Positions 24,648 to 28,083 of a stretch of 64,000 nt of DNA are shown piece after piece. The DNA comes from Croceicoccus naphthovorans (GTDB lineage: Bacteria; Pseudomonadota; Alphaproteobacteria; Sphingomonadales; Sphingomonadaceae), in the NCBI RefSeq assembly GCF_001028705.1, contig NZ_CP011770.1, forward strand, positions 2,359,501 to 2,423,500, read 5' to 3'. The translations under genes were made by a program, and so were the position numbers. The notes beneath the pieces are model-generated. The model saw only the letters and a program-made list of their open reading frames with translations. It searched no databases and was not told the origin of the DNA. Each line of letters opens with the position of its first letter. Positions within the stretch are counted from its first letter, which is position 1.

Positions 24648-25691
24648 GTGAGCCGCAAGCCCTCTCGCATCCCGGTCGCCATCCCCGAAGACGAATCGCC
24701 AATCCATGCGCCACGCGGCAATGGCCGCGCCAGAACTGAGCTCGCGTTTGAAGACGCGGACGTGCTGGGCGCGCTGTTTGGCCAGTTCGACGCCAACCTC
24801 GTCCACATCGAAAACCGCCTTGGCGTCTATATCTCCGCACGGGGCAACCGCGTACAGATCGAAGGGCCGGAGGAAGCCGTCGCCCGCGCCCGCGAGGTGC
24901 TGACCGGCATGCACACCCGGCTGGGACAGGGGCAAGAGCTGGATCAGGGCGCGGTCGAATCGCTGATCGCGATGAGCAACGAGCCGACGCTGGAAGGCAT
25001 CATCACCGGCGATTCCAAGCGCCCGCCGATCATGATCCGCACCCGCAAGAAAACGATCGTGCCGCGCTCCGCCGCGCAGATCGACTATATGCAGGCGCTG
25101 ACCAGCAACGAGATCATCTTCGCGCTCGGCCCGGCGGGTACGGGCAAGACCTACCTCGCCGTCGCACAAGCGGTGGCGCAGCTGATCACCGGCAGTGTGC
25201 AGCGCCTGATCCTCTCGCGTCCGGCGGTCGAGGCGGGGGAGCGTATCGGATTCCTGCCCGGCGACATGAAGGAAAAGGTCGACCCCTATCTGCGCCCGCT
25301 TTACGATGCGCTCTACGATTGTCTGCCCGCCGAACAGGTCGAACGCCGCATCGCCAGCGGAGAGATCGAGATCGCGCCGATCGCCTTCATGCGCGGTCGT
25401 ACGCTGGGCGATGCCTTTGTGATTCTGGACGAGGCGCAGAACACCACCACTGCGCAGATGAAGATGTTCCTGACCCGATTCGGTCAGAACAGCCGCATGG
25501 TCGTGTGCGGAGACCCGCTTCAGGTCGACATTCCGGGCGGCGATTCGCACTCCGGTCTGGCCGATGCTGTGCGCCGGTTGGAGGGAATCGAAGGAATCGC
25601 CGTTTCGCGATTCACCGCCGCCGACGTCGTGCGGCATCCAATCGTCGGTCGGATCGTCGATGCTTATGAGGGCCCCCAAGCCCAAAAATGA
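24648..25691 (+). CDS. PhoH-like ATPase
   Basis: A cytosolic P-loop ATPase of the PhoH/YbeZ family, thought to act with YbeY in RNA metabolism. The 347-residue protein starts at GTG 24648. A KH-like segment (about 45-75, IENRLGVYISARGNRVQIEG) precedes the ATPase domain with Walker A GPAGTGKT at 161-168 and Walker B VILDEAQNTT. The 153-bp gap upstream contains no gene. Its stop is the first of three ATGA overlaps leading into ybeY. Confidence 0.94.
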   Translation: MSRKPSRIPVAIPEDESPIHAPRGNGRARTELAFEDADVLGALFGQFDANLVHIENRLGVYISARGNRVQIEGPEEAVARAREVLTGMHTRLGQGQELDQGAVESLIAMSNEPTLEGIITGDSKRPPIMIRTRKKTIVPRSAAQIDYMQALTSNEIIFALGPAGTGKTYLAVAQAVAQLITGSVQRLILSRPAVEAGERIGFLPGDMKEKVDPYLRPLYDALYDCLPAEQVERRIASGEIEIAPIAFMRGRTLGDAFVILDEAQNTTTAQMKMFLTRFGQNSRMVVCGDPLQVDIPGGDSHSGLADAVRRLEGIEGIAVSRFTAADVVRHPIVGRIVDAYEGPQAQK

Positions 25692-25722
25692 CTGCTCAGA
25701 AATGACTGCCCGCAAATGACCG
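25686..25722 (+). repeat. 14-nt tandem repeat forming two 5-codon micro-ORFs between phoH and ybeY
   Basis: The unit AAATGACTGCYCRS begins at 25686, 25700 and 25714, with the third copy partial. The phoH stop TGA (25689-25691) overlaps an ATG at 25688 that reads MTAQK and stops at 25703-25705. That stop overlaps an ATG at 25702 that reads MTARK and stops at 25717-25719. The last stop overlaps the ybeY ATG at 25716. Each junction is an ATGA. Confidence 0.9.
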
Positions 25723-26228
25723 TGCCGACATTGGAAATCGACATCGACCCGGTGTGGGGCGAAGATGTCGATTGGGACGCCCTGAGCACCCGGACCGCAG
25801 GGGCCGCAGCGGCCGAAGCGCCTGAACTTGCGCGTGCCAACATGCTGATAAGCGTGGTTTTCAGCGACGATGACGACGTTCACGCGCTTAATCGAGAATG
25901 GCGCGACAAGGACAAGCCGACCAACGTTCTGAGCTTTCCGATGCTGTCGCGCGAAGAGGTCGAGGCACTGTCGGATCAGCCCGCATTGCCGGTCATGCTG
26001 GGCGATATCGTGCTTGCGAAAGGGGTCTGCGCGCGCGAGGCGGAAGAAAAATCTGTTGCACTTGCGAACCATGCGACCCATTTGCTGGTCCACGGATTGC
26101 TTCATCTCGCCGGTTACGACCACGAGACGGGCGACGCCGATGCCGAAATCATGGAGGCGCTGGAAGTGCGCATCCTGGCCAGGCTAGGCATTGCGGACCC
26201 ATACGGGGATCGCCACCAACCTGTTTAG
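25716..26228 (+). CDS. ybeY: endoribonuclease YbeY (rRNA maturation factor)
   Basis: A zinc metalloprotein involved in 16S rRNA 3'-end maturation and ribosome quality control. The 170-residue protein has NREWRDKDKPTNVLSFP and the HxxxHxxxxxH zinc site at His126, His130 and His136 (HGLLHLAGYDH), with an LGDIVLA motif in between. Its ATG sits at the last of three ATGA junctions after phoH, so its translation probably depends on ribosomes finishing phoH. corC follows 17 bp downstream. Confidence 0.95.
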   Translation: MTVPTLEIDIDPVWGEDVDWDALSTRTAGAAAAEAPELARANMLISVVFSDDDDVHALNREWRDKDKPTNVLSFPMLSREEVEALSDQPALPVMLGDIVLAKGVCAREAEEKSVALANHATHLLVHGLLHLAGYDHETGDADAEIMEALEVRILARLGIADPYGDRHQPV

Positions 26229-26245: not shown

Positions 26246-27199
26246 ATGCCGGACGGCAGCCAGTACGAAGATCCACGCGACCCGGAGCCTGAGCGACGGG
26301 GGCAGGAGAAACACCTGCTGTGGAACCGCATCCGCACCTTCTTCGATGCGAGCGAGGGGGATCAGTCCCTGCGCGCCCAGATCGAGGAGGTTATCGACGA
26401 GCACGAAGAGGAAGAGCAGCGCGACGGCCTGCCGCCCGAAGAAGGCGATCTTTCGCCGACCGAGCGCCAGATGCTGCGCAACCTCCTCCATTTCAGCGAA
26501 CATGACGCCGACGACGTTGCGATTCCGCGCGGCGAGATCATCGCCCTAGACCGCAGCGCCAGCTGGGACGAACTGGTCGCGACTTTTGCCGAACACGGCC
26601 ATTCGCGCATGCCGGTCTATTCCGAATCGCTCGATCACGTGATCGGGATGATGCACATCAAGGATATCTTCCCCTTCCTCGCGCTCGATAAAGAACCGCC
26701 GGCGGACTGGACGCGCCTGATGCGTCAGCCGCTCTATGTGCCTCAGGCGCGCGGGGCGCTGGACGTTCTGGCAGACATGCGCGCGCGCCGGGTGCACCTT
26801 GCCATCGTGCTGGACGAATATTCGGGCACTGACGGCATCATCACCATCGAAGACCTAGTCGAGGAAATTGTCGGCGAGATCGAGGATGAGCACGACGATG
26901 CCCCGGTCGATTTGCTGGTGCCCATCGACGAGGGCATGTGGGACGCCGATGCGCGAACCGAGCTGGACGAAGTGGCCCGCCGCGTCGATCCGCGCCTTGC
27001 CGACGTGGAAGAGGCGGTCGACACGCTGGGCGGCCTTGCCTTCGTGCTGGCCGAACGCGTGCCGGTGGTGGGCGAAATCCTGCCGCATGACAGCGGCTGG
27101 AAGCTGGAAGTAATCGCCGGGAACGAGCGGCACGTCGAACGATTGCGGCTGCACCCCCCTTCGGGGGCCAGAGACCATCAGGCAGAGGAAGCCGCCTGA
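26246..27199 (+). CDS. CBS-domain protein, CorC/HlyC family (YbeX-like)
   Basis: A 317-residue soluble protein with an acidic N terminus (VIDEHEEEEQRDGLPPEEG). Two CBS domains follow, with DVAIPRGEIIALDRSASWDELVATFAEHGHSRMPVY and AIVLDEYSGTDGIITIEDLVEEIVGEIEDEHD. A C-terminal CorC_HlyC domain then covers VEEAVDTLGGLAFVLAERVPVVGE. The family is linked to Mg/Co efflux or to ribosome assembly in the ybeY operon. Its last base overlaps the LysR gene (TGATG). In many Proteobacteria lnt follows here, but not in this window. Confidence 0.92.
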   Translation: MPDGSQYEDPRDPEPERRGQEKHLLWNRIRTFFDASEGDQSLRAQIEEVIDEHEEEEQRDGLPPEEGDLSPTERQMLRNLLHFSEHDADDVAIPRGEIIALDRSASWDELVATFAEHGHSRMPVYSESLDHVIGMMHIKDIFPFLALDKEPPADWTRLMRQPLYVPQARGALDVLADMRARRVHLAIVLDEYSGTDGIITIEDLVEEIVGEIEDEHDDAPVDLLVPIDEGMWDADARTELDEVARRVDPRLADVEEAVDTLGGLAFVLAERVPVVGEILPHDSGWKLEVIAGNERHVERLRLHPPSGARDHQAEEAA

Positions 27200-28083
27200 T
27201 GACGCCGCGCCGCCTCCCTCCGCTACGCTCTCTCGAAGCCTTCGTCCGCATCGCCCGTCTCGGCTCTGCAAAATCTGCGGCAGAGGAACTGGCCATCAGC
27301 CCGTCCGCCCTGTCCCGCCGGGTCAGCGCGCTTGAAGACTTTACCGGCAAAAAGCTGTTCAACCGCAAGCATCAGGCCATGGTGCTCACCGCGGACGGCA
27401 CCGACTTGTTCGAAGCCGTTGCCCCTGCGCTGGACGAACTGGCCGATCGCATCTGGCAGAACATGGGCGACAGCAAGATCATGCGCCTGCGCCTTGGCGT
27501 GATGCCGCTGTTCGGCGGGCAAAGGCTGGTGCCGCGCCTGCCCGAACTGCGCCGCCTTTACCCCGCGTTGCACATCGATATCGATTCGTCGTCGCACCCC
27601 ATCCCGAAACTGGGCGATACGCTGGATGCGGCGATCACCCTATCGGATGAGCCGGACGACAAGCTGCATTGCGTGCGGCTGGATCACAACAAGGTCCACG
27701 CCATCGCATCGCGCGCCGTGGCCGAACAGATGGGGCCGACCCCCAATCCCGAACTATTGGCGCGGCAGAGCTATCTGCTCCATTCGGAAATGATGAAAAG
27801 CTTCGAAGCGTGGCGCAAGGCGACCGGGCTGGACGCGCGATACGATCCGACGGTCGATCACTACGACAGCGGTCCTCTATTGCTTGAAGCTGCGGCGCAG
27901 GGGCTGGGCATCGCGATCATGCATGGCGATCATATCAGCCGTTCGAACGACGATCGCATCGCGACGCTGTTCGATCTGCAGGTCGAAAGCCCATACAGTT
28001 ACTGGTTCGTCTGCAAGCCCCGCGCGCTGGAGAGCCGACCGGTGCGCCTGTTCCACGATTGGCTGGTCGGCGCGCAGCTTTAA
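27199..28083 (+). CDS. LysR family transcriptional regulator (GcvA-like)
   Basis: A 294-residue LysR-type regulator. The N-terminal helix-turn-helix reads RLPPLRSLEAFVRIARLGSA, then AAEELAISPSALSRRVSALEDFTGKKLFNRKHQ, which is the GcvA-like subtype. The C-terminal effector domain spans about residues 93-290. It shares one base with the corC stop and is therefore probably expressed with the miaB-phoH-ybeY-corC series. No obvious divergent target gene is adjacent. Its stop TAA shares TTAA with the stop of the convergent lipase gene. Confidence 0.88.
   Translation: MTPRRLPPLRSLEAFVRIARLGSAKSAAEELAISPSALSRRVSALEDFTGKKLFNRKHQAMVLTADGTDLFEAVAPALDELADRIWQNMGDSKIMRLRLGVMPLFGGQRLVPRLPELRRLYPALHIDIDSSSHPIPKLGDTLDAAITLSDEPDDKLHCVRLDHNKVHAIASRAVAEQMGPTPNPELLARQSYLLHSEMMKSFEAWRKATGLDARYDPTVDHYDSGPLLLEAAAQGLGIAIMHGDHISRSNDDRIATLFDLQVESPYSYWFVCKPRALESRPVRLFHDWLVGAQL

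Follow-up and report, generated by a model that had tools for sequence, protein, structure and literature searches.

Chained five-codon micro-ORFs between phoH and ybeY of Croceicoccus naphthovorans, and similar ATGA relays at gene junctions of its family

The window analyzed here, a 64,000-nucleotide stretch of the Croceicoccus naphthovorans genome (contig NZ_CP011770.1), carries phoH and ybeY in succession on the forward strand, together with the short repeat that joins them. phoH, as given in the ORF list (24648..25691), codes for a PhoH-like ATPase (Pfam PF02562, E 1e-90) and begins at the first GTG of its ORF; ybeY (25716..26228) is 170 codons long and codes for the endoribonuclease/rRNA maturation factor (PF02130, E 3e-32). 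From position 25680 onward the junction reads GCCCAAAAATGACTGCTCAGAAATGACTGCCCGCAAATGACCGTG. The letters and a repeat finder agree on a 14-nt unit, with one copy at 25686..25699 (AAATGACTGCTCAG), a second at 25700..25713 (AAATGACTGCCCGC) that is identical to the first in 11 of 14 positions, and a partial third at 25714..25723 that reaches into ybeY. The repeat finder reports all three, 14 nt apart from start to start, and, comparing over 24 nt, puts the second and third at 79% and 71% identity to the first.

Each copy contributes an ATGA, at 25688, 25702, and 25716, and these link the phoH stop to ybeY through two micro-ORFs of five codons. phoH ends in CAA AAA TGA, with its stop (25689-25691) inside the first ATGA; the ATG of that motif opens micro-ORF 1 (25688..25705; MTAQK, stop at 25703-25705), whose stop overlaps the start of micro-ORF 2 (25702..25719; MTARK, stop at 25717-25719), which in turn closes on the ybeY ATG. 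All three junctions are thus stop/start overlaps of the kind, ATGA or TGATG, that marks gene pairs coupled by termination-reinitiation. The initial annotation had described this relay, and the sequence, the ORF list, and the repeat finder all bear its geometry out; its argument that an extra copy alters neither protein, 14 not being a multiple of three, is likewise supported. Since 14 is 2 mod 3, every new copy forms a closed five-codon micro-ORF whose stop overlaps the next start, and any tandem duplication of an ATGA junction that has this length modulo three and is free of in-frame stops makes such a chain automatically, so that the three overlaps are not three independent coincidences. The TGA at 25689 also closes the ybeY frame, and the ybeY start therefore necessarily lies downstream of it; in each of the 14 genus genomes, C. 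naphthovorans included, the alignment with ybeY begins at query residue 1. Elsewhere in the window, at 27197-27201, an ORF at 26246-27199 and another beginning at 27199, which from their translations we take to be CorC-like and of LysR type, respectively, share a single base in a TGATG.

Shine-Dalgarno signals at the junction are very weak. The nearest Shine-Dalgarno-like stretch of the junction, GAGGG at 25668..25672, lies within phoH codons and 15 nt from the ATG at 25688, and the duplex energies with the anti-Shine-Dalgarno sequence before the ATGs at 25688, 25702, and 25716 are -2.1, +0.7, and -0.1 kcal/mol, values that rule out a Shine-Dalgarno sequence in each unit. Weak pairing extends to other relays: in 25 of them the mean energy before relay-internal and gene-start ATGs is -3.2, weaker than the -4.2 of 1511 ATG starts in a genus sample, and 32% of relay ATGs reach -4.5 compared with 48% of the sample starts. 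Negligible pairing fits a dependence on ribosomes arriving from upstream, and it fits weak initiation in general equally well. It also fits a reading in which successive AUGs, in a region with almost no Shine-Dalgarno signal, would catch ribosomes and raise ybeY initiation independently of phoH; we consider this highly improbable, on the evidence of the wider survey described below. We note separately that a -1 slippage at CAA AAA TGA could fuse MTAQK to PhoH; the corresponding sites in copies 2 and 3 lack the matching letter, which makes a full chain of slips unlikely.

The phoH-ybeY junction was compared across 14 Croceicoccus genomes (G000 being that of the window), all of which have ybeY. 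Two relatives (G007 and G001) have a plain ATGA between the genes; in G006 a TGATG leads into one five-codon micro-ORF (MTFPR) and then an ATGA, and in G008 and G002 a TGATG leads to an in-frame start 15 nt upstream. Together with G000, these are six genomes in which every stop overlaps the next start all the way from phoH to ybeY, at distances of -1, 16, 17, or 27 nt, where the count runs from the stop's first base to the start of ybeY. G011 has a TGA directly before the ATG and an 8-codon ORF that ends on ybeY. In the remaining seven no chain spans the gap, which on the same count is 8 nt (G003, G010, and G013), 27 nt (G009 and G004), 29 nt (G012), and 50 nt (G005); a relay is evidently not required at a distance of 27 nt, which G009 and G004 share with the window. 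The initial annotation looked to an alignment of this junction for variation in copy number; it does reveal two plain ATGA relatives and a number of copies that varies, but the double relay itself is in G000 only (1 of 14), and its conservation at this junction is rejected.

The search was widened to 80 ybeY loci, from which 22 without a phoH match were dropped and 58 were examined alongside the 14 genus loci (72 in all). None of these 58 further loci has a double ATGA relay between phoH and ybeY; one (L045) has a single five-codon ORF followed by the ATG, and two (L001 and L049) have longer chains that use GTG or TTG starts. At two loci (L061 and L079) ybeY has an in-frame ATG 5 nt ahead of the phoH stop, immediately behind a GAGG or GAGGG made by phoH codons. 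The exact YbeY sequence falls in a cluster with one member sequence, and no second strain of the species was found there. Trees do not place the window consistently: in a protein tree of PhoH plus YbeY, G000 falls beside the other five chain-keeping genomes with a support of 0.45, and in the corresponding DNA tree it is split from those five with 0.97.

A simple history for the junction is suggested by its length. The phoH end is at a common position in G000, G001, and G007, and in G000 ybeY lies exactly 28 nt farther away, a difference consistent with two 14-nt duplications. The ancestral junction would then have been a plain ATGA overlap of phoH and ybeY, and the 14-nt unit containing that ATGA would have been duplicated twice in tandem. 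With its ATG left unused, an inserted unit would leave a gap of about 13 nt; use of that ATG restores the overlap, and a period of 14 would therefore be tolerable and one of 13 less so, as is observed on the family scale. A ribosome leaving phoH could step from phoH to MTAQK, MTARK, and ybeY with no untranslated gap to cross, and such additions may survive, or decay only slowly, since the junction grows while the downstream gene stays coupled. Reinitiation is reported to be strongly distance dependent and to fall as the gap grows, and a gap of 38 nt reduced it by 80 to 90% or abolished it in E. coli, with shorter gaps varying between gene pairs (PMC10666635, in the portion available); the accessible part of a recent review describes the spacing data as conflicting and the reinitiation mechanism as not firmly established (PMC12548453). 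We somewhat favor this reading, in which tandem duplication of a stop/start overlap is kept or tolerated for added lengths of 2 mod 3, preserving termination-reinitiation coupling.

Similar arrays occur elsewhere in the genus. In the 14 genus genomes the pattern ATGA-N10-ATGA-N10-ATGA matches 9 times, at 8 places, and the reversed-pattern control does not match at all. All earlier ATGs open five-codon ORFs at all 8 places, and at 7 of them an ORF of 92 to 348 codons begins with the last ATG. Other periods are scarcer, with 3 matches each at 17 nt and 11 nt, 5 at 13 nt, and 6 at 16 nt (controls of 1, 0, 0, and 1, respectively), and the one among them that is clearly tandem and placed at a gene start is the 11-nt array at the ruvC start of G009. 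The count for 14 thus exceeds even those for 11 and 17, an excess that the frame rule does not explain. At about position 1501 of L105 in G001 (reverse strand), an open frame of 469 codons and an ORF of 258 codons are separated by a double relay with a period of 17, which forms two 6-codon ORFs.

Three of the eight period-14 places are starts of ruvC, the family being assigned from the G003 copy. G003 has three five-codon micro-ORFs upstream of ruvC, G010 and G012 have two, and G004 and G011 have one; G009 has two 4-codon micro-ORFs at a spacing of 11, and G001 has two 4-codon micro-ORFs chained by TGATG. At least one ATG micro-ORF therefore ends on the ruvC start in 8 of the 14 genomes, counting G007, in which an 11-codon ORF (containing an internal ATG) ends on a GTGA start; none does so in the other six. 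The two or three chained 4- or 5-codon micro-ORFs of G003, G010, G009, and G012 (L122, L124, L127, and L134) resemble the first codons of ruvC. Turnover is fast, as the RuvC proteins of G010 and G013 are 96% identical to that of G003 yet their genes have 2 and 0 micro-ORFs compared with 3. Copy number thus differs between species at both the phoH-ybeY and ruvC junctions, in keeping with the idea of the initial annotation that copies can be gained or lost. Its further suggestion, that the unit copies set the number of ribosomes reaching ybeY and that gain or loss of a copy adjusts YbeY, draws on this same variation in ruvC micro-ORF number between species; there is, however, no common trend in copy number, and sequence alone cannot separate tuning from tolerance, and we hold such a role to be improbable. 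There are ruvC arrays that do not abut the gene upstream, an arrangement that would suit initiation from clustered AUGs.

On the family scale, the period-14 triple has 79 matches in 52 of 249 genomes, compared with 14 matches in 10 for the reversed control, and the period-13 triple has 34 matches in 29 of the 249, compared with 1. The matches listed resolve into 64 distinct arrays for period 14, with both registers of three 7-nt repeats counted, and 32 for period 13. When ORFs down to a length of 100 codons are considered, 19 of the 64 period-14 arrays and none of the 32 period-13 arrays run from the end of an upstream ORF at the first copy to the start of a downstream ORF at the last; a minimum of 150 codons gives 17 and 0. 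Counting a stop anywhere before a start by the same ORF-length criterion gives 26 of 64 and 3 of 32 (Fisher P 0.002), whereas stop and start share a copy in 5 period-14 and 10 period-13 arrays. This ORF-length count includes the case in the window (L098), and also L415, whose upstream frame is not coding-like. A codon-usage criterion for both gene ends, trained on the genus sample and missing the upstream gene of L098, identifies 24 of 64 period-14 arrays (16 first-to-last, 7 second-to-last, and 1 in the same copy) and 4 of 32 period-13 arrays, all in the same copy. The contrast between frames rests on this one pair of periods, and the array counts include kin: L258, L263, and L453 share one junction type, and L422, L458, and L460, counted as separate arrays, have starts of similar length, with two of the proteins reading alike.

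By chance, about 0.08 double relays with the stop first and the start last are expected per fixed spacing in the 249 family genomes, a figure derived from an imperfect gene list and assuming the junction values of the genus and a 3.2-Mb genome for the whole family. The double-relay layout therefore recurs at family gene junctions more often than chance allows. Duplication is one source, as 8 of the 16 arrays marked as abutting both genes have at least 7 of 10 equal spacer letters. The contrast between periods is left unexplained by AUGs that capture ribosomes without regard to phoH, and that model does not require what 19 arrays show, a beginning placed precisely on the stop of the frame upstream. 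Three family genomes contain longer 7-nt ATGA repeats (ATGAGGG in L281, ATGACGG in L416, and ATGACAC in L417), and the last ATG of one register in L281 opens 189 codons without coding-like codon usage.

The genes joined by these arrays are varied. A Kinase-PPPase gene is followed by Maf in three genera, identified by Pfam for both genes in L258, by Pfam for Maf in L263, and by its N terminus and alignment in L453; the three ATGAs are at identical positions in all three, with spacers that mostly differ. Within each genus, the relay is in one of four sampled species (G085, G115, and G131), and it would appear either to arise repeatedly or to be often lost. Pfam further identifies PdxJ followed by AcpS (L451), a LigT-type phosphoesterase (L412), and glycerol-3-phosphate dehydrogenase (L279), and gave no match for the downstream ORFs of L418 and L097. 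We take other junctions, from reading of their sequences, to involve RNase PH/RdgB (L413), endonuclease III (L095), and release factor 1 (L278).

A serious but less probable alternative is that these are ordinary short tandem duplications arising by neutral slippage, with the micro-ORFs being by-products that are hardly translated and ybeY being initiated on its own. The restriction of the double relay to 1 of 14 genus genomes is as expected from such a process, and so is the behavior of single relays. In a genus sample of 2.4 Mb from six genomes, with 2033 genes called and an imperfect gene list that lacks ybeY itself, relays of one or more steps lie between 12 of 476 close co-directional gene pairs; shuffles have a mean of 11.3, and 91 of 200 reach 12, such that a general excess of single relays between genes is rejected. 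With the same gene list, upstream ATGs in the relay frame are slightly commoner in ATGA-start genes (104 in 578) than in other ATG-start genes (145 in 933), and the idea that micro-ORFs are in general overrepresented ahead of ATGA starts is also rejected; tandem copies lie over 3 of about 2030 starts, with 1 and 6 in chimeric controls. The excess is confined to repeated, evenly spaced arrays.

Two further observations are in keeping with slippage. Among the arrays listed from viral contigs, relays number 8 of 282 for periods 11, 14, and 17 and 2 of 198 for periods 13 and 16, with no clear effect of frame; these counts are to be read as fractions only and leave out arrays within 200 nt of the end of a stretch and the shared loci L341, L586, and L589. 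Similar arrays are also found behind genes with no gene start after them: in L259, L406, and L408, period-14 arrays of 3 to 5 copies begin at the stop of a coding-like frame and lead into no gene, providing a counterexample to a purely start-linked role. What slippage does not account for is the difference between 0 of 32 period-13 and 19 of 64 period-14 stop-to-start arrays, since it should not tell 13 from 14, nor does it predict that three genera should have the relay at the Maf junction. On these grounds duplication filtered by frame remains the reading that we prefer, and such relays probably keep neighboring genes linked in translation.

Spacer divergence speaks at most weakly for selection. 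Identity is 5 of 10 or lower in 8 of 19 arrays (family arrays and three genus arrays, using the first spacer pair of longer arrays and leaving out L453; L280 is scored as 3 by its first pair and is 8 by its second). Neutral decay predicts such values in 17 to 31% of arrays with six or four free sites and in 59 to 70% with one, and the binomial P is 0.004 if the rate is 15% and 0.18 if it is 30%. Divergence thus exceeds neutral decay at most weakly and in a model-dependent manner, as slippage would have it; with one free site there is no excess, and selection on the ATGAs is not established. The stronger proposal, in which five-codon ATGA-linked chains are a maintained translational device of sphingomonads, with local relays, duplications filtered by frame, ATGAs that outlast their spacers, and a copy number that sets ribosome flow into core genes (ybeY, ruvC, maf, and acpS), is an unlikely one.

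Among known systems, close relatives are gene pairs coupled by termination-reinitiation at ATGA or TGATG overlaps, for which coupling is reported to need an overlap or a very short gap (PMC6728339 and PMC10666635, in the text available). The phoH-ybeY junction shares the ATGA overlap and differs in having two five-codon ORFs between the genes and three overlaps in a row, with coupling here being predicted. The closest precedent appears to be the mycobacterial MIRUs, repeats that carry an internal ORF coupled through a -4-nt overlap and that reportedly can be inserted with little effect on expression (PMC12548453, in its accessible part). On this account, the remark in the initial annotation that it knew of no description of such a relay was too strong. 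MIRU units of 77 bp and 53 bp are given in the available parts of PMC2453075 and PMC4213456, and both lengths are, by our arithmetic, 2 mod 3. Intergenic location, an internal ORF at a -4-nt overlap, and a variable copy number are common to the two, and MTAQK and MTARK are, like the MIRU ORF, small repeat ORFs that overlap the neighboring stop and start. The unit here is 14 nt rather than 53 or 77 bp, however, and MIRUs are one dispersed family that is said to appear mobile, whereas junctions of the phoH-ybeY type each seem to build their own 14-nt unit locally.

Dispersal was not seen in 400 kb of the same genome or in 199 family genomes. On one strand of that 400 kb the single unit has 2 exact matches, which are the junction copies, and 4 with one mismatch, and the three-copy array with up to 3 mismatches has one match, in 1 of the 199 family genomes (four of which are of this genus); these searches rule out a dispersed element as far as they extend. 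A further comparison is the leader minigene mg2 of axe-txe, which has 2 codons and ends 15 nt before txe (PMC8708949, in the portion available): it too is a very short upstream ORF that changes translation of the next gene in cis and for which distance matters, but unlike the phoH-ybeY units it is neither a repeat nor an ATGA chain. A literature search mostly outside subscription papers gave, among the matches listed, no recognized account of five-codon ATGA chains with a 14-nt period, and what is new would be micro-relays built locally where a stop and a start overlap.

Provided that such relays do preserve coupling, a gene junction can lengthen by increments of 2 mod 3 and leave the operon coupled. 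This would provide a test, from sequence only, of whether reinitiation is under selection, and the varying junctions, with their 0 to 3 reinitiation steps, would serve as natural constructs from which the loss per step could be measured. Start prediction is ambiguous at these junctions, and ORFs of five codons, far below annotation limits, may be translated.
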